Shown here in pieces: positions 25,588 through 36,939 of a stretch of DNA of 36,968 nucleotides. How positions within the stretch are numbered: the stretch's first letter is position 1; the number at the start of each line of letters is the position of its first letter. Below the pieces are notes generated by a model. That model was not told the DNA's origin. It saw nothing but the letters and a program-made list of their open reading frames with translations, and ran no database searches. Position numbers and translations under genes: made by a program. The stretch lies in the NCBI GenBank assembly GCA_028867335.1, contig JAGWGN010000012.1, positions 1 through 36,968 of the forward strand, read 5' to 3'. Source of the DNA: Microcaldota archaeon (GTDB lineage Archaea; Micrarchaeota; Micrarchaeia; Micrarchaeales; CABMGC01).

Positions 25588-26046
25588 CTATCCACAACTT
25601 TTCTCAACGTCGCTTTCTAGTCCGTTTATTATGTCCTGGATGTTATCTTTGCGAACCGCCTTCTCAAGAACGGATTTGGCTTTTTCCAGATCGCCAGGAG
25701 CGGAAGAGATGCGGTTAAAGTATGAATCAATAAGCAGTTTAATCTCTTTGGCCATCTTTTTGTTTTTTGGGCCCTTAAGGCTTAGGCAATAATCCATCGC
25801 GGTGCGGTCACTTGAGCTTTGCAAACTTGGATTCGCGCCCTGCTCGAGCAGAAACCTGACTACCTCTATATGCCCGCCCATCACTGCCACCATCAGGGGA
25901 GTCCAACCGTACATTCCGGTACTATTTATGTCTGCTCCTTGCGAAAGAACGTCCTTGACCTGCGAAAGCAAACCTGATTGCGCCCACTTGCGCAATTCTT
26001 GGTTTAAGACGTTTACAGGCCTTTTATTAGCAATCTTATTCATCAT
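25588..26046 (-). CDS. Short ankyrin repeat protein with shared C-terminal motif
   Basis: 152 residues from ATG 26046. Longer in-frame starts upstream (to 26133) would read through the TATA box, so they are unlikely. Two clear ankyrin repeats occupy about 15-80 (LRKWAQSGLLSQVKDVLSQGADINSTGMYGWTPLMVAVMGGHIEVVRFLLEQGA). A basic linker with KGPKNKKMAKEIK follows, then the tail RKDNIQDIINGLESDVEKS, the same motif as its neighbour. It is first in the two-gene minus-strand cluster. Function unknown. Confidence 0.82.
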   Translation of the reverse strand: MMNKIANKRPVNVLNQELRKWAQSGLLSQVKDVLSQGADINSTGMYGWTPLMVAVMGGHIEVVRFLLEQGANPSLQSSSDRTAMDYCLSLKGPKNKKMAKEIKLLIDSYFNRISSAPGDLEKAKSVLEKAVRKDNIQDIINGLESDVEKSCG

Positions 26047-26077
26047 CAACACTAACGATACTATTTCAGAATTTTTC

Positions 26078-26090
26078 ATATATAAACAGT
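26078..26090 (-). promoter_or_regulatory. TATA box of the minus-strand ankyrin operon
   Basis: CTGTTTATATATG on the minus strand. Predicted transcription start is about 26058, 12 bases before the ATG at 26046. The element plus the following AAAAAT resembles the promoter of the plus-strand ankyrin operon at 35212-35228. Confidence 0.5.
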
Positions 26091-26149
26091 CCACAAAATT
26101 GCAGAATAATGAGGAAGTATTGTGGATTTGCAATGCTGTCCAGACGATA

Positions 26150-26814: not shown

Positions 26815-29178
26815 CTATCTCTGGAAGGTCACGTTTCTTACCCCGAAGTTAAGGTAAGGGTTCCCCTGCACCGCAGCAGTGTTGTTTGCGGTCACCAAAA
26901 AGAGCTGGTTTATCCCCTTGCTAAGCGAGAGCGTCGTGTTGTACTGGCTTGGGGCTGTGGAGAGCGTGAATGAGGCAACCTGGTTTGTAGGGGAGTTGAG
27001 GTAGAAGATCAGCGGGGCTGAGGAGCCCAGATACGAGGCAGCGGTGAAGTTCATCTTTACCTTGGTGTCGTTCGTGGAGTATATGTCAATTGCCCTCACG
27101 TTTGGGCCCCACCAAAGCGAGCCGAATGTTGAGTTGCATGTGAACTGGTTTGCGCACAGCGTGTATCCTGCGGCCCATGTGCCTGCGGTATAGGATACTA
27201 TCTGCGGGTGGAAGTGGCTTGTCGCATTCTTGGTGGAGAACACAATAGTCGTGTTGTCCTGGTATGAAGGCAACCCGAACACCGAGACGAGGTAGCTGCC
27301 CAGCGTTGTCAGCTCTGAGGTGTTGTACGCCTGTCTTATTATGGAGATGAACGCGGAGTTGTAGTTGATCAGCCAGAAGAGCGTGACGTTGCTGTAGTTC
27401 TCAAGTATGGGTGAAGGGTAGACAAAGCCCTGGCCACTCTGCAGATAGCTTGCGCCCACTGTGAGCGGCATCGTGAGAGACGGAAGCAGCTCGGTCTCAT
27501 TCACCCTTGAGGTGTACCCGCTTATTATCGGCTTGTGGGTTGCGGTCTGGTAGTACATAGAGAGTCCTAGGTAGAGCTCAGGGAAGTAGTTGCTGCTGCT
27601 CTGTATCGCAGGGATCATGACGACACTGTAGTTTCCAGGTATCTGGCCGATCTCATAGTAAGCGTGGGGGATAGTAGGTGTCGCAAATGCGGCGCCTATG
27701 AACTGGCCTGAGAGAGGTATGCCTGCGTACTCGATAAGAATTATGAGCGCAATCACTGCAGCGTACTTCCGCTCTATTCCAAGCATCTGGGGCCGCTTCG
27801 CCTTCGCAAGGTCAAGGACCTCCCTAAATCCGTATGCCGCAAGGATTGCAAGCGCCACGGTGAATATCATGTCGAACCTTGCGGGCTCCCTTATTATGTT
27901 GAAGAATGGTATCGCCTTGTAGATAAGATATATTGAAGGGATTCCCGAAGGCGCCGCCGTTGATGCGGAAGCGGGCAGGCTGCCGAGCTGGATGTATGGA
28001 CCAAGAGAGAGGAGCCCAAAGAGCACAAGCGCCGCAATCCAAGGGAGGGTGTTTGCGAGCTTGTTCTTCTTTTTCTCATACCAGATTCCTAGTGCTGCAA
28101 GTATCATCGCCGCGTATCCAAGGTATGAGATTCTCTCAATCGGATCGATGGAGTATATTGAGCTGTATGATCCCGATAGCCACGAGAAGAGGTTGTTGTA
28201 GGGGCTTGGCAAAAGGAACGATGCGACAGGGTCGCTCCAGAGCATGTTGTGGCCTGCGTCGTTTAGCGCCGAGCCTGCGGAGCTAAGCACCCCATTTGTG
28301 AATGCGCCGGAGATTGGGATCAAAAACGGTGAGCCCAATATTAGTACTAATATTCCCATCACTACGAATGAAATTGCGAACTCTTTGTTTAATATTAAAG
28401 AACGTCTGCTCTTGCTTATCGCATATATTGCCAAGAGCATTATAACAAATAATGCAGTTATTATTCCCTGCTCTGGATCCCCCATGAAGAGAAGAAATAC
28501 AAAACTCACCGCTGCGGCGAGAGAGTAGATCAATTTCTTCTGATTTATCATTCCGAGTACCTTTTCCCCTTTCATCATCGCTGCAGAACGTACTGCATCA
28601 CCTAAGGAATCAGGGGTCTTTTCATGTATCATTTTTAGGAAGAAAAGTATGAAGAGCGGAAGGAACTCGATGTTGGTCCAGTTGATGTGGCCGCCGAACG
28701 CCTGCGCAAGGTGCATTGGGCTGAACGCGAAGATTATTCCTGCGATGAATGCGGCGTACTTGTTTTGCACAAGGTAGTCGGCGAGCAGGTACATGAAGAA
28801 TCCGGAGAGCATGAATGCGAGGAAGAAGATAACGTTGTATGAGAAGAGAAGGCCGCCTAGCTGGAACGGGAAGCTCAGGTACGCTGAGATTGGCGAGAGG
28901 GTCTGGGTGACAAGACTGGCCCCGACCGGATAGTAGAGCATCGGCGTGAAGTAGATTGAGGTGTGAAGGGTGAATGTCGCGTAGTTGACCCACCACATGT
29001 TCCAGAGGTTCTGGTAGAGATCGCCTGCGCCGTTCACTGTTGTGCTTGCGATATGCACGGTGATCGGCCAGAAGACTACAAGCGCTATCGCAAGATAAAT
29101 CAGAAGTATGGGAAGGTACTGCCTTGCGCCGGCGACGAGCTGCTCGCCGAATGAGGCCTTAGAGTTTTTTTCTTCCAT
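26815..29178 (-). CDS. Large polytopic membrane protein, GT-C-type glycosyltransferase-like
   Basis: 787 residues. The first ~470 hold about 11-12 TM helices. The first extracellular loop has an acidic motif (NGAGDLYQNLWNMWWVN) of the kind that coordinates the lipid-linked sugar in GT-C enzymes. SPMHLAQAFGGHINWTNIEFLPLFILFF is typical of the YfhO/GT-C-like membrane family. The C-terminal ~300 residues are an Asn/Thr/Ser-rich extracellular region with many N-x-S/T sites and a beta-sandwich look. It probably transfers sugars from polyprenyl phosphate on the outer face; the acceptor is unknown. It is first in an operon with the FkbM gene and divergent from the flippase. Confidence 0.78.
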   Translation of the reverse strand: MEEKNSKASFGEQLVAGARQYLPILLIYLAIALVVFWPITVHIASTTVNGAGDLYQNLWNMWWVNYATFTLHTSIYFTPMLYYPVGASLVTQTLSPISAYLSFPFQLGGLLFSYNVIFFLAFMLSGFFMYLLADYLVQNKYAAFIAGIIFAFSPMHLAQAFGGHINWTNIEFLPLFILFFLKMIHEKTPDSLGDAVRSAAMMKGEKVLGMINQKKLIYSLAAAVSFVFLLFMGDPEQGIITALFVIMLLAIYAISKSRRSLILNKEFAISFVVMGILVLILGSPFLIPISGAFTNGVLSSAGSALNDAGHNMLWSDPVASFLLPSPYNNLFSWLSGSYSSIYSIDPIERISYLGYAAMILAALGIWYEKKKNKLANTLPWIAALVLFGLLSLGPYIQLGSLPASASTAAPSGIPSIYLIYKAIPFFNIIREPARFDMIFTVALAILAAYGFREVLDLAKAKRPQMLGIERKYAAVIALIILIEYAGIPLSGQFIGAAFATPTIPHAYYEIGQIPGNYSVVMIPAIQSSSNYFPELYLGLSMYYQTATHKPIISGYTSRVNETELLPSLTMPLTVGASYLQSGQGFVYPSPILENYSNVTLFWLINYNSAFISIIRQAYNTSELTTLGSYLVSVFGLPSYQDNTTIVFSTKNATSHFHPQIVSYTAGTWAAGYTLCANQFTCNSTFGSLWWGPNVRAIDIYSTNDTKVKMNFTAASYLGSSAPLIFYLNSPTNQVASFTLSTAPSQYNTTLSLSKGINQLFLVTANNTAAVQGNPYLNFGVRNVTFQR

Positions 29179-31595: not shown

Positions 31596-31625
31596 TTCTC
31601 GGACGGAAAATAGGCCAGTGGAAAC

Positions 31626-31635
31626 CTTTTTATAT
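31626..31635 (+). promoter_or_regulatory. TATA box of the sulfate-activation operon
   Basis: CTTTTTATAT is centred near 31631, predicting a start near 31657, inside the palindrome at 31649-31668. Confidence 0.5.
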
Positions 31636-31648
31636 CATCTTAATGTAT

Positions 31649-31668
31649 TATAATGTTATAACATTATA
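31649..31668. promoter_or_regulatory. Perfect 20-bp palindrome, candidate RHH operator
   Basis: TATAATGTTATAACATTATA is its own reverse complement. It overlaps the predicted transcription start of the ribbon-helix-helix gene that begins 15 bases downstream. A further TAATGT half-site lies at 31641, exactly ten bases (one helical turn) before the one at 31651, so the array suits cooperative binding of RHH dimers. Autorepression is the natural inference. Confidence 0.6.
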
Positions 31669-31930: not shown

Positions 31931-32227
31931 ATGAAGACAAACGATGATTTCAAGAGTGTTGCAGAGAGGCTCTGGAAGGACCAGAGCGAGGCGAACTGGA
32001 AGGCGCTCGCCTCATCCCTCAAGAAGGGGAACGTGAAGTACTACAAGGTGTTCTTCGAGAAGAAGAGCAAGCTGAACAAGATCGAGGACCTGCGAAAGTC
32101 CTACGCAGAGCTCTACGACCCAAAGTACAGAAGCGTGGCGAAGGTGCCGATCTTCAAGAAGGGAAAGGCTGGAATGGAGGGGGCGACGATATACCTCAAG
32201 GGGCTGATGGTGAACAACAGAGAGTGA
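31931..32227 (+). CDS. 98-residue protein of the sulfate operon, unknown
   Basis: 98 residues, basic, soluble. Helical N-terminus (DDFKSVAERLWKDQSEANWKALASSLKKGNVKYYKVFF), then KLNKIEDLRKSYAELYDPKYRSVAKVPIFKKGKAGMEGATIYLKG. No domain is recognised. It lies 8 bases after the RHH gene and 4 bases before cysD, so it is clearly co-transcribed. It could be a small partner or assembly factor of the CysD/CysN enzyme or a second regulatory protein; there is no sequence evidence for either. Confidence 0.7.
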   Translation: MKTNDDFKSVAERLWKDQSEANWKALASSLKKGNVKYYKVFFEKKSKLNKIEDLRKSYAELYDPKYRSVAKVPIFKKGKAGMEGATIYLKGLMVNNRE

Positions 32228-32231
32228 TATT

Positions 32232-33020
32232 ATGATAAAACAAGACCTGAAGAGTTTGGAGGAGAAGAGCATATACGTGATCAGGGAGGCGAAGATAAAG
32301 TTCTCTAAGATCGCCGCGCTTTGGAGCATGGGAAAGGACTCGACCGCGATGCTCGGGCTTGCAAGGAAGGCATTCCTTGGAAAGGTTCCGTTCCCGGTGA
32401 TACACATTGACAACGGGATCGATTTCCCCGAGACGTATCAGTTCAGGGAAGAGCTCACAAAGAAGTGGGGGCTTGACCTGATTGTCGCAAAGAGCAAGAT
32501 AAAGCCGGAACTATCCGGATTCGCATGCTGCGGTGCAAACAAGACGGTCGAACTGAAGAAGGTGATGAAGCAGTACGGATTCGACGCGCTGATCGTCTCG
32601 ATTAGAAGGGACGAGCACGGAATCCGCGCAAAGGAGAGGTACTTCTCGCCGAGAAACGAGAAGTTCAAGTGGAACTACAAGGACCAGCCTGCCGAGCTCT
32701 GGGACGACTACTCCTCAAAGCTCGACAACAAGGGGCACGTGAGGATCCACCCGCTGCTCGACTTCAACGAGATCGACATCTGGAACCTCACGCTGAAGAA
32801 CAAGATACCTGTAAACCCGCTCTACTTTGCAAGGGACGGCTATAGGTACAGGAGCCTTGGATGCACACACTGCACAGTCCCTCTCAAGTCGAACGTGAAG
32901 AACATCAACGGCATAATCAAGGAGCTCTCGACAACAAAAATCGAGGAGAGGGCCGGAAGGGAGCAGGACAAGGAAAAAGAATATGTTATGCAAAAATTGA
33001 GAAGTTTGGGTTATATGTAG
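32232..33020 (+). CDS. cysD: Sulfate adenylyltransferase small subunit-like, PAPS-reductase fold
   Basis: 262 residues. It forms adenylyl sulfate from ATP and sulfate with the GTPase CysN. The PP-loop is WSMGKDSTAMLGLARKAF (residues 31-48), like the SxGKDS...LARKAF of CysD, followed by VPFPVIHIDNGIDFPETYQFRE. The family marker RRDEHGIRAKERYFSPR and the QPAELWDDY and RIHPLLDFNEIDIW segments also match. A Cys pair at 99-100 and CTHC at 211-214 recall the CC...CxxC cluster motif of APS reductases. It ends YVMQKLRSLGYM. The last ~15 codons are abruptly AT-rich, in step with the HNH gene that follows. Confidence 0.88.
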   Translation: MIKQDLKSLEEKSIYVIREAKIKFSKIAALWSMGKDSTAMLGLARKAFLGKVPFPVIHIDNGIDFPETYQFREELTKKWGLDLIVAKSKIKPELSGFACCGANKTVELKKVMKQYGFDALIVSIRRDEHGIRAKERYFSPRNEKFKWNYKDQPAELWDDYSSKLDNKGHVRIHPLLDFNEIDIWNLTLKNKIPVNPLYFARDGYRYRSLGCTHCTVPLKSNVKNINGIIKELSTTKIEERAGREQDKEKEYVMQKLRSLGYM

Positions 33021-33027
33021 TGATACA

Positions 33028-33936
33028 GTGCCGTCGATTAAAAAATCAAAAAACAGTAAACACCATGAGAATTACTTGAAATACAAAAAGTATTACATAA
33101 AATACGGGAAGGAAAATTCGGGAATCTATTACAAAAAAAATAGAGAGGAAATTTTAGAAAACAAGCGCATCCATTATAGAAAAAATAAACTTGAGATCTT
33201 AGAAAAGGCCAAGTTATATTATTCCAAAAACAAAGAAAATAGAAAAAGGTACAATAAAAACTACAGAATTAAAAATTTGGAAACGCTTAAGAAACGCGAT
33301 AGAACTTACTATTGGAAAAACAGGGCAAAAATTAGAGATTACAAGATAAAAAATTCTGCGAAGATTGTTTTGCAAAGAAAAATCTACAAAGAGGGGATAA
33401 GACAAGATATTTTGTCCCACTATTCTAATAGCATCGTACCAAAATGTAAGGAGTGTGGAGAAAAAAATCGTTTATTGTTGACGATAGACCACATAAATGA
33501 AAATGGAGCAAAAGAACGAAGAGCGTTAGGGAAAAAGGGGGGGATCGAATTTTACATTTGGTTAAAAAGAAGAGACTACCCCTCTGGATATCAAGTACTC
33601 TGTTACAATTGCAACTGGTTAAAGAGGTACAACAATAAAGAAACTACACGCTCTAAGTACAGTAAAAAAATAAAAATAGACCTTCTATCGCACTACGTAG
33701 ACAAAGATAAAAAAGTTAGGTGCTCACAATGTGGCGAAGAAAGGCTAGACTTGCTTACCTTAGACCACATTAAAGGAGGTGGACACATTGAGCAACAAAA
33801 GCTTGGTTTGAAGGGTACAGAATACTACAGATATCTTGCAAAAAGAAATTATCCACCGGGTTTTAGAATATTATGTATGAACTGCAATGTTTCGGCTGCG
33901 CGCGCTACAATTTCAATGATGAAAATAGGTGTATAA
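33028..33936 (+). CDS. Double HNH-type endonuclease, probable free-standing homing nuclease
   Basis: 302 residues from GTG 33028, with AGTGAT as ribosome site. Residues about 15-115 are a Tyr/Lys/Asn-rich repeat (YYKKNREEI, HYRKNKLEI, YYSKNKENR, YYWKNRAKI), as in DNA-binding tails of phage HNH proteins. Two zinc-HNH-like modules follow: CKECGEKNRLLLTIDHINENGAKE...YPSGYQVLCYNCN (about 140-190) and CSQCGEERLDLLTLDHIKGGGHIE...YPPGFRILCMNCN (about 230-290). Each keeps a DH pair and two CxxC pairs. It is far more AT-rich than the surrounding operon. It sits between cysD and cysN, seven bases after one and one base before the other. Probably selfish, not part of the pathway. Confidence 0.82.
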   Translation: MPSIKKSKNSKHHENYLKYKKYYIKYGKENSGIYYKKNREEILENKRIHYRKNKLEILEKAKLYYSKNKENRKRYNKNYRIKNLETLKKRDRTYYWKNRAKIRDYKIKNSAKIVLQRKIYKEGIRQDILSHYSNSIVPKCKECGEKNRLLLTIDHINENGAKERRALGKKGGIEFYIWLKRRDYPSGYQVLCYNCNWLKRYNNKETTRSKYSKKIKIDLLSHYVDKDKKVRCSQCGEERLDLLTLDHIKGGGHIEQQKLGLKGTEYYRYLAKRNYPPGFRILCMNCNVSAARATISMMKIGV

Positions 33937-33937
33937 A

Positions 33938-35158
33938 ATGATTGTAAAAAACATAACTCTATTGGGACACAAAGACCATGGTAAATCGACTTTAATAGGC
34001 AGCTTACTTATTCAAACAAAATCTGTTACGGAAGCGAGGATAAATGAGGCAAAAAAGATAGCTAAAAAATTTGGCAGAAAGTTCGAGCCAGGCTACATCC
34101 TAGACAGCTTCTCTGAGGAGCGAGAGCAGGAGATGACGATCGACACCACAAGGGCGGAGATGGTCCATAGGGACCTCGCATTCGCATTCATAGACGTGCC
34201 AGGGCATGAGGAGCTCATAAAGAACATGATCAGCGGCGCATCCTACGCAGAGATAGCGCTGCTTTTGGTCTCCGCAAAGGCGGACGAGGGAATAAGAGAT
34301 CAGACAAAGAGACACATATTCATCGCAAGGATGCTTGGAATAAAGAAGCTGATTGTCGCGGTAAACAAGATGGACATGGTTGGATACAACCAGCAAAGAT
34401 TCGAGCAGATAACAAACGATCTTAGGGGATTCATACAGCGAATAGGGTTCGGGGGATCCGAAGTCTACTTTGTCCCTACTTCGGCATACAAGGCGGAAAA
34501 TTTGCTGAAGAAGAGCGCAAACATGAAGTGGTACAAGGGAAAGAGCCTGATAGACCTGCTCTATGTGAACGCGAAGATTGAGGACAAGGAGAAGCAGAAT
34601 GCTCCGCTTAGGATAACCGTTCAGGGGGCAATAGACGCAAAGCAGCAGACACTGGTCGGCAAGGTGGTGAGCGGTAAGGTCAGCATCGGAGAGGAGGTGA
34701 GCATACTCCCATTTGCAGCTCAGGCAAAGATAACATCCATCACTGTAAAGGGGAAGAAAACCAAAAAGGCCCAAGTAAACGATGACATTGCGCTAACATT
34801 CGACAAGCAGATCAGGGAGAATGTGAGGGGCGCGGTAATAGCAAACAAGAACGAGAAGCCGAAAATGACAAGCACCATAGAGAGTCTGATATTTGTTACA
34901 GGGCCGATAAAGAAGAACCTGTCCATAAAGATAAACAGCAACGACGTCAAATGCAAGCGCCTTGAGATCTTAAGGTACCTTGACACTACAACAGGCATGG
35001 AGAGCCCTGAGAAAAGGGCGAAGGAGCTTGAGGCGATAGGCGCGAGGCTTGAGCTTGGCACCAAGATACCTGTGGAGAGCTTTGGCTCAGTTAAGGAGCT
35101 GGGAAGGTTTGTTTTATACAGTGACAAGAAGTTTGCCGGGATTGGGATAGTCGAGTAG
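33938..35158 (+). CDS. cysN: Sulfate adenylyltransferase GTPase subunit (EF1A-like)
   Basis: 406 residues from ATG 33938; a GTG at 33929 would overlap the HNH gene. G1 is GHKDHGKST; switch-I/II ILDSFSEEREQEMTIDTTRAEM and DVPGHEELIKNM; NKMD and TSAYKAEN complete the G motifs. The stretch DQTKRHIFIARMLGIKKLIVAVNKMDMVGYNQQRF matches CysN far better than EF1A. GTP hydrolysis drives APS formation with CysD. Two beta-barrel domains follow. It is shorter than E. coli CysN. The first ~50 codons are AT-rich (AAA, TTA, ATT), switching near base 34083 to the GC-richer local style (AAG, CTG). Confidence 0.9.
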   Translation: MIVKNITLLGHKDHGKSTLIGSLLIQTKSVTEARINEAKKIAKKFGRKFEPGYILDSFSEEREQEMTIDTTRAEMVHRDLAFAFIDVPGHEELIKNMISGASYAEIALLLVSAKADEGIRDQTKRHIFIARMLGIKKLIVAVNKMDMVGYNQQRFEQITNDLRGFIQRIGFGGSEVYFVPTSAYKAENLLKKSANMKWYKGKSLIDLLYVNAKIEDKEKQNAPLRITVQGAIDAKQQTLVGKVVSGKVSIGEEVSILPFAAQAKITSITVKGKKTKKAQVNDDIALTFDKQIRENVRGAVIANKNEKPKMTSTIESLIFVTGPIKKNLSIKINSNDVKCKRLEILRYLDTTTGMESPEKRAKELEAIGARLELGTKIPVESFGSVKELGRFVLYSDKKFAGIGIVE

Positions 35159-35277: not shown

Positions 35278-35808
35278 ATGAACAAAAATACATACGCACC
35301 AGGCCCGTATATGGATAAGGAGCTTATTAATTCCGCAAAAGTAGGGGACACAAAAGGTGTAATAAAAGCGATTAGAGACGGGGCCAACATTTGGGGGGCA
35401 AGGGAAGAAGGATCAGGATATACTGCGCTTATGGGTGCAATACAATTTGGCAAGTTGGAGACAGTGAAGAGTCTGCTAGAATGGGGCGCAGCTGCAGTTA
35501 TGGAGGTGGAAACCAGTAACGGCACAACAGCGCTCAACTGTGCAGCATCAAATGCCTGCATAAACGGTGATCGATTGGAGATTCTTAGGCTTCTGCTTAG
35601 GAACGGCGCTCAGGCCAAAGATAAAAATAAAAATGGGAAAACAGCCAGGGATTATGCGTGTTCTGAGGAAGTAAAAGTATTGCTTGACAAATCGGATCCG
35701 TTGTTTTTGAAACTGCAAGAACAGAAAGATGTGCTTGGTAGAAAAGAAGTTTTAAATGAAATAATAAAGGATTTGAACAGCGACACTGATCCAAGAGGGG
35801 ATATTTGA
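35278..35808 (+). CDS. Ankyrin repeat protein with shared C-terminal motif
   Basis: 176 residues. Three to four ankyrin repeats (LINSAKVGDTKGVIKAIRDGANIWGA, GYTALMGAIQFGKLETVKSLLEWGA, TTALNCAASNACINGDRLEILRLLLRNGA) are followed by a charged linker and the tail RKEVLNEIIKDLNSDTDPRGDI. It is soluble and has no signal peptide. First of at least three co-directional ankyrin genes; its TGA overlaps the next ATG by one base. Partner unknown. Confidence 0.88.
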   Translation: MNKNTYAPGPYMDKELINSAKVGDTKGVIKAIRDGANIWGAREEGSGYTALMGAIQFGKLETVKSLLEWGAAAVMEVETSNGTTALNCAASNACINGDRLEILRLLLRNGAQAKDKNKNGKTARDYACSEEVKVLLDKSDPLFLKLQEQKDVLGRKEVLNEIIKDLNSDTDPRGDI

Positions 35809-36572
35809 TGGGATTATTCAAAAAAAGTGCGGTGGACGAAGCAAGAAGAGACACAGATAGAGAGCAGAAGGCAAACCAGATTCTGCGCGATGCTTCTAAG
35901 GCGGGAAACACTTACATGATTATAAGGGCCCTTAAGGACGGCGCAAACATAAACGCATTTGGAGAGGAAGGAAAAACTGCGCTTATGTTGGCAATAGAGA
36001 AAAAGGATGGCAAGGTTAGGAACTTGCTCATGAAAAACGGTGCAAAGATAGATGCAAAGGATAGTGAGGGATGCACCATACTCATGCATGCCGCAGAAGA
36101 GAGAGGAGTAGATATAATAAAACTTCTTTTGGAAGAAGGCGCTAGAGTGAATATTTGGGGCAACTCTAGACAAACGCCACTCATCTATGCAGCAAGGGGA
36201 GGAAATCTAGGGGTAATCAAGCTGCTAATTGAAAAAGGGGCTGCAATAGATCATGCAGACAAAAATGGATGGACGGCTCTGATGTGGGCTATAATGTATG
36301 CTAATGAGGACACCATAAAGCTGCTTTTGGAAGCGGGCGCAAACATCAGGATAGTTGATGTGCATGGCAGGGATGCCCTTACTCTCGCTAGAGAGGGGCA
36401 GGAGAATACAACAGACGAGGAGATGATTAGAATCATCAATCTGATTTCAGAATGGAAGATACGTCCTGAGAAAGAAAGGCAGGAGCTAAACCTTCGAAGA
36501 AAGGAGAGCGTTGAGGATATAATAAGCGATCTAAATGGAGACGTTGCGGATGAGGCAAAGCAAGATGATTAA
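35808..36572 (+). CDS. Ankyrin repeat protein with shared C-terminal motif
   Basis: 254 residues from ATG 35808, overlapping the previous stop (TGATG). Five or six well-formed ankyrin repeats cover about 25-205 (GKTALMLAIEKKDGKVRNLLMKNGAKIDA, GCTILMHAAEERGVDIIKLLLEEGARVNI, QTPLIYAARGGNLGVIKLLIEKGAAIDHA, GWTALMWAIMYANEDTIKLLLEAGANIRI). The tail RRKESVEDIISDLNGDVADEAKQ carries the shared motif. It is the longest member of the cluster; no catalytic domain is attached. Confidence 0.9.
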   Translation: MGLFKKSAVDEARRDTDREQKANQILRDASKAGNTYMIIRALKDGANINAFGEEGKTALMLAIEKKDGKVRNLLMKNGAKIDAKDSEGCTILMHAAEERGVDIIKLLLEEGARVNIWGNSRQTPLIYAARGGNLGVIKLLIEKGAAIDHADKNGWTALMWAIMYANEDTIKLLLEAGANIRIVDVHGRDALTLAREGQENTTDEEMIRIINLISEWKIRPEKERQELNLRRKESVEDIISDLNGDVADEAKQDD

Positions 36573-36939
36573 AAATAAATCAACTGAGGATAGGATCTAT
36601 TGGAACCATGAATTGTTTAGCGCAGCGCGAAAAGGACATACGTGGGGAGTAAAAAGAGCGATTTCGAATGGAGCAGAGCTTGAGTTCGAGGACGAGCTTG
36701 GCTGGACTGCACTAAAGCACGCTATCCACTCAGAAAATTCCAACTCCGTCAAGGCGCTTCTCCAGGCCGGGGCGGATCCCCGAAACTACCTGCAGTACGT
36801 CAGTACAAAAGCGATAGAGAGGCTCTTTGAGCAGTATGACCGGTCACTAAGTAAAGCAAGAAGGCAAAGAGAGGAGCTTGGGAAGCAGGAGAAGCTCAAT
36901 GAGATAATAGAGGACTTAGAAGATGATTTAAGAAAATAA
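36565..36939 (+). CDS. Short ankyrin repeat protein with shared C-terminal motif
   Basis: 124 residues from ATG 36565, overlapping the preceding gene by eight bases (ATGATTAA). In-frame ATGs at 36550 and 36535 are possible but overlap more. About two ankyrin repeats are visible (LFSAARKGHTWGVKRAISNGAELEFEDELGWTALKHAIHSENSNSVKALLQAGADP). A charged helix follows, and the tail KQEKLNEIIEDLEDDLRK shows the shared motif in its purest form. The next ATG begins directly after its stop. Confidence 0.85.
   Translation: MIKNKSTEDRIYWNHELFSAARKGHTWGVKRAISNGAELEFEDELGWTALKHAIHSENSNSVKALLQAGADPRNYLQYVSTKAIERLFEQYDRSLSKARRQREELGKQEKLNEIIEDLEDDLRK

Follow-up and report, generated by a model that had tools for sequence, protein, structure and literature searches.

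A phased palindrome at a sulfate-activation promoter of Micrarchaeota as the probable operator of a ribbon-helix-helix regulator

In a Micrarchaeota genome, a long palindrome lies over the predicted transcription start of a small putative ribbon-helix-helix (RHH) gene that precedes genes for sulfate activation. Is this palindrome an operator, and if so, of which genes? The preliminary description had taken it for the autoregulatory operator of a sulfate-activation operon. The features concerned, all within the window (the whole stretch of DNA analyzed, 36,968 nt), are collected in Table 1.

Table 1. Promoter elements and genes of the putative sulfate-activation operon in the window
Feature	Position	Strand	Evidence
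BRE/TATA-like element CCTTTTTATATC of the RHH-orf98-cysD-cysN operon promoter	31625..31636	+	Sequence; same element before the operator in relatives
Third half-site TAATGT, 10 bp upstream of the first half-site of the palindrome	31641..31646	+	Sequence; offset counts in orthologous promoters
Perfect 20-bp palindrome TATAATGTTATAACATTATA	31649..31668		Sequence and shuffle test
Conserved putative operator core TAATGT-N4-ACATTA over the predicted transcription start	31651..31666		Conservation in relatives
Putative RHH regulator, 79 aa	31683..31922	+	ORF; orthologues; AF2 model and fold matches
orf98, conserved small protein between RHH and cysD	31931..32227	+	Position kept in almost every Micrarchaeota locus
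cysD, sulfate adenylyltransferase subunit 2	32232..33020	+	PF01507 2.2e-38; NF003587 CysD 2.7e-85; 1zun_A 2.1e-49
HNH-type gene between cysD and cysN	33028..33936	+	Weak HNH match
cysN-like EF-1alpha-family GTPase, presumed sulfate adenylyltransferase subunit 1	33929..35158	+	PF00009 4.6e-43; linkage to cysD

Direct reading confirmed that the 20-bp sequence is exactly self-complementary. No perfect palindrome in the window was longer, and no other reached 20 bp. Perfect palindromes of at least this size arose in 0.05% of cases when the local 81 nt were shuffled, and in 6% of dinucleotide shuffles of the whole window. Because of the latter figure, the palindrome alone is not compelling, and palindromicity by itself gave only moderate evidence for a site. 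The second-longest perfect palindrome, AATATTAGTACTAATATT (18 bp, 28337-28354), lies inside a large membrane-protein ORF.

The stretch from 31619 reads tGGAAACCTTTTTATATCATCTTAATGTATTATAATGTTATAACATTATACAACAAGTGAGTGATTG. Here TAATGT begins at 31641 and again at 31651, and ACATTA at 31661, which puts the three hexamers in a single 10-bp register; the third TAATGT claimed ten bases from the next was indeed there. The TATA-like element GAAACCTTTTTATATC spans 31627-31634, and a transcription start about 25 bp downstream of its center would fall inside the palindrome, as the preliminary description had predicted. A scan of the window for sigma-70 promoters and terminators gave no matches, as expected for an archaeon.

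The upstream regions of 65 orthologous RHH genes (the first group of Micrarchaeota, window included) were compared, with a match defined as at least 11 of the 12 fixed bases. TAATGT-N4-ACATTA matched in 60 of them, 53 perfectly, in each case just downstream of the TATA box. By the same definition, 0.25% of 3,250 shuffles matched, none perfectly. The central four bases were free (TATA in 25/60, otherwise many variants), and the outer TA pairs varied too. The 20-mer as such is therefore not the conserved unit; what is constrained is two (or three) phased hexamers. Absence of the palindrome upstream of orthologous RHH genes had been named as the result that would speak against an operator. The opposite was found: the site was near-universal and extended to other phyla (below). 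At the sequence level, this conservation is decisive evidence that the site is real.

Extra half-sites were present at offset -10 in 17 of the 60 loci and at the mirror offset +20 in 19, compared with a mean of 0.94 at other offsets, and they were always directed towards the dyad. The phasing is thus statistically real. The distance from the TATA center to the palindrome was bimodal, either 5-9 or 14-20 bp, one turn apart. The palindrome occupies slots 1 and 2 or slots 2 and 3 of the same 10-bp ladder; the window belongs to the latter type and has a hexamer in each of the three slots.

Pattern searches of the window's own genome (960 kb in 61 contigs) found the 20-mer once when up to 3 mismatches were allowed, and TAATGTN4ACATTA once at 0-1 mismatch. 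The 17 further sites at 2 mismatches were fewer than the 27 obtained with a reversed control pattern, and a wider regulon in this genome was dismissed as noise. In its own genome, the RHH protein would thus appear to be a single-target local regulator.

Across the relatives, the core was also typically found once per genome, at the RHH gene. Second sites were present at TauE/SafE permease promoters in some Micrarchaeota (L139, L140, L141), and in L144 and L148 they preceded a phosphodiesterase/nucleotide-pyrophosphatase gene; the RHH protein appears to control these genes there as well. Other second sites, in L137, L142 and L146, lay near contig ends, and those in L142 and L146 seem to be additional copies of the RHH promoter. 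Second sites inside genes (L147, L149) were discarded as chance.

The palindrome overlaps the predicted start, where AT-rich sequence is common, and might then be only a core-promoter or RNA element, such as an initiator or a 5' hairpin, with no regulator involved. An element of this kind would not be expected typically once per genome and restricted to RHH/sulfate promoters, nor to show symmetry and 10-bp phasing across several phyla, GC-rich genomes included. Transcripts starting within the palindrome would also be unable to form the full hairpin. We consider this explanation very improbable.

What operon does the site precede? The proposed sulfate-activation operon was supported by the strong CysD match and the CysN-like GTPase. 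NCBIfam models of both CysN and EF-1alpha matched the latter below their cut-offs, and it was therefore called CysN by its linkage to cysD. The order RHH-orf98-cysD-cysN is the standing one in Micrarchaeota relatives.

The HNH-type gene is missing at this position in nearly all relatives, where cysD and cysN are adjacent. It contains two CxxC-bearing HNH-like segments and overlaps the start of cysN. A related gene follows cysD in L086, and a different gene is inserted upstream of cysD in L143. The inserted genes in the window and in L143 are possibly free-standing homing endonucleases. The operon region is flanked by ankyrin-repeat genes, one on the - strand (25588-26133) and three consecutive ones on the + strand (35278-36939) with similar C-terminal endings (EIIxDLxxD).

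The product of orf98 had no significant family match. The gene adjoins cysD in most Micrarchaeota loci, and its product is a possible third component of the sulfate-activation complex. A small RHH gene followed by a small uncharacterized gene, with a palindrome over the promoter, also resembles an antitoxin-toxin (TA) pair with an ordinary TA operator, and ParD antitoxins were among the top fold matches of the RHH protein. A type II antitoxin is expected to be constantly paired with its toxin gene. On the other hand, orf98 was not detected beside RHH in four loci of the order (L076, L084, L089, L091), nor was it seen in other phyla, where RHH remains with sulfate genes. There was no PADLOC match for RHH, and a TA module would not typically stay linked to cysDN across almost every Micrarchaeota locus, as RHH does. 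A TA pair is very unlikely.

A natural control was provided by a second Micrarchaeota group (14 loci, in the second family of the order), in which RHH and orf98-cysD-cysN are oriented divergently. On the cysDN strand, 13 of these loci carried a TATA-like element (e.g. GGTTTTTATATC, CCTTTTTATACC) with a TAATTA-N4-TAATTA-type palindrome close behind it, mostly in two copies, and then the orf98 start. The regulator gene is inverted in these loci, and the operator is retained at the sulfate promoter. Because the divergent loci keep the site at the cysDN promoter, we prefer 'operator of the sulfate operon' to 'autoregulatory' only. The original proposal was supported, the sulfate operon as target better than autoregulation alone; binding by the RHH protein is predicted.

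The divergent loci also bear on whether the protein might activate, alone or as a dual regulator that turns on the sulfate genes under sulfur limitation. Seen from the RHH gene, their sites precede its own TATA-like element, which would suit an activator, and some RHH proteins, such as AmrZ, both activate and repress (PMC3325190). On the cysDN strand, however, whichever way the RHH gene is turned, the sites are downstream of the TATA element and cover the predicted start, which is hard to fit to an activator. The archaeal RHH regulators reviewed are mostly promoter-occluding repressors (PMC5569661). Activation therefore seems unlikely, and repression is the reading followed here.

The RHH gene starts with TTG, directly after an in-frame stop, and its orthologues were found in 83 of 98 related genomes. 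Neither Pfam nor NCBIfam contained a family that matched the protein; the family is new to both. The best PDB match of its profile, to the N-terminal RHH part only of Pyrococcus horikoshii NikR (2bj1), was non-significant (E=0.08). The AF2 monomer (pLDDT 77) had helices at 19-28 and 37-57 after a strand-like TTITIP, which belongs to the predicted beta-strand segment RKYTTITIP, with no strand assigned. Most of the top Foldseek matches of the model were RHH proteins (ParD2, NikR at prob 0.93, Arc), all with E>0.6. The putative RHH assignment is based on the sequence pattern, the weak NikR match and the AF2/Foldseek results.

Profile searches detected the family in 44/148 genomes of the phylum titled Lokiarchaeota, 16/151 of the phylum of L133, and 19/148 of the phylum of L135 (titled Woesearchaeota). 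Genes resembling those for Sat, APS kinase, CysD, CysN or PAPS reductase were located within about 1.5 kb of RHH in 30/30, 10/16 and 11/19 fetched loci, respectively. By Pfam identity, the neighbors in Asgard and other archaea were sat, APS kinase, cysDN or TauE genes.

Boxes of TAATTA were present within 130 bp in 40 of 57 upstream regions of the other phyla, where they were tenfold denser than in the remainder of the loci. A spacing of 10 bp separated 33 pairs of boxes and one of 20 bp a further 9, compared with 1 and 0 elsewhere in the same loci. Two GC-rich genomes carried TTTAATTACATATAATTGAA and TTAATTACACATAATTGAA just before RHH. In 27 of 65 loci in other phyla, no strong TAATTA/TAATGY palindrome was found within 130 bp upstream of RHH, for some of them because RHH is not the first gene of its operon. 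In L128 and L129, the order is TauE-Sat-AP-APS kinase-RHH, with RHH last, and the only strong site in 12 kb lies before TauE, the first gene.

An Asgard subgroup (L159, L164, L167) has TAATGC/TAATGT boxes in place of TAATTA, in four-box arrays at 10-bp pitch (TAATGC-N4-GCATTA-N4-TAATGC-N4-GCATTA in L159). In four loci of the Woesearchaeota-titled phylum (L216, L217, L218, L222), a second RHH-like ORF, beginning RTTIQVS, is located just upstream of the sulfate RHH gene and near a TACATAATTNTATGTA-like palindrome. This is possibly a second regulator with its own operator.

Which residues distinguish the two codes? Arg10, Ser35 and Asp39 separated users of TAATGY from users of TAATTA, and Arg10 was present in all TAATGY users examined. 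Arginine in the RHH sheet is reported to favor guanine, and lysine adenine (PMC10853773). Judged from known RHH structures, Arg10 would share a face with the contact positions Tyr12/Thr14/Thr16; it is a candidate specificity residue that may pair with the G of TAATG. In a tree (72 columns), the TAATGY code could have arisen only once or twice, so the covariation is suggestive and serves as a lead. Replacement of Ser by Thr in the strand (TTVSIP to TTITIP) was rejected as the sole switch, since L159, L164 and L167 use TAATGY with TTVSIP.

Taken together, the palindrome and the phased third half-site are very probably the operator of RHH-orf98-cysD-cysN, with the 79-aa RHH protein as the cognate repressor predicted to bind it. 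TAATTA is itself palindromic, and the pitch is 10 bp whether TAATGY half-sites are inverted, direct or everted. From this constancy we infer that one two-fold symmetric dimer would be centered on each hexamer (TAATGT or its complement), which its two-stranded ribbon would read. Neighboring dimers, one helical turn (10 bp) apart on the same face of the helix, could touch and would bind cooperatively.

The array begins just past the TATA element and covers the predicted start, and for this reason promoter occlusion is proposed: occupancy would block assembly of TBP, TFB and RNA polymerase, or the start itself. RHH proteins often bind over the start site or promoter of their own gene, oligomerize along the DNA and exclude the preinitiation complex (reviewed in PMC5569661). 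Sulfate activation, through both the regulator and CysDN, would likely come under negative feedback. On these sequence grounds, the RHH protein is very probably a dedicated autorepressor of sulfate activation, with repression and cooperativity predicted.

What might the repressor sense? In the window, RHH ends in KKLRSLGYV and CysD in QKLRSLGYM. L73, L76, G77 and Y78 were invariant in 58 RHH sequences. CysD of the same operons ends in KLR(A/S)LGYM, where bacterial CysD (1zun_A) aligns with KKRQGY. Ends of the type L..LGY, or close variants, were found in 291 of 4,211 ORFs of the fetched loci, which overlap so that the counts are not independent: 186 RHH, 100 CysD, 4 PAPS-reductase-like and 1 other. 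The tail KLxxLGY is thus nearly exclusive to RHH and CysD among the ORFs of the loci examined.

The most attractive reading of the tail is a shared docking site, which might let the regulator sense the state of the enzyme; alternatively, the tail may be a degradation signal common to both proteins. A larger model is tentative and, in our estimate, rather doubtful. In it, the RHH tail would mimic that of CysD, both would compete for a partner (e.g. CysN or the CysDN assembly), and free versus assembled enzyme would set repression; together with the Arg10-paired switch from TAATTA to TAATGY, this would make a multi-phylum sulfate-activation regulon.

A search of open-access papers found no RHH or other regulator of archaeal sulfate activation. 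The present analysis gives a family, an operator code and a likely regulon for Micrarchaeota, Asgard archaea and further lineages represented mostly by metagenomes. The series TAATTA, TAATGT and TAATGC at a constant 10-bp pitch provides natural operators with which changes in the DNA specificity of a beta-ribbon can be studied.

Like MetJ, Arc, CopG and NikR, the protein is predicted to have a short N-terminal strand and two helices, with phased symmetric sites and a putative operator over its own promoter; symmetric and tandem phased sites in that position, expected of an RHH autorepressor, were found. It differs from them in forming its own family without a Pfam or NCBIfam model, in its hexamers at 10-bp pitch and in its CysD-type C-terminal tail. 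Its predicted contact residues are Y/F-T-T/S, where Arc or MetJ have charged residues. Unlike NikR, the 79-aa protein has no C-terminal ACT-like nickel-binding domain.

The RHH regulators of archaeal viruses SvtR, AvtR and F55 share with it archaeal promoters, tandem or inverted AT-rich sites and autorepression by occlusion, which is predicted here (PMC5569661); the present protein is cellular and linked to sulfate activation, with other site sequences. CdrS, the haloarchaeal cell-division regulator (PMC8406309), is likewise small, cellular and archaeal, but has other target genes and no sulfate linkage. The Omega repressor of the MetJ/Arc family (omega-epsilon-zeta) differs in its 7-bp boxes (NATCACN) and its plasmid/TA context. 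It binds as one dimer per short box, to palindromic and non-palindromic boxes, cooperatively (PMC4803016), which is the arrangement predicted here.
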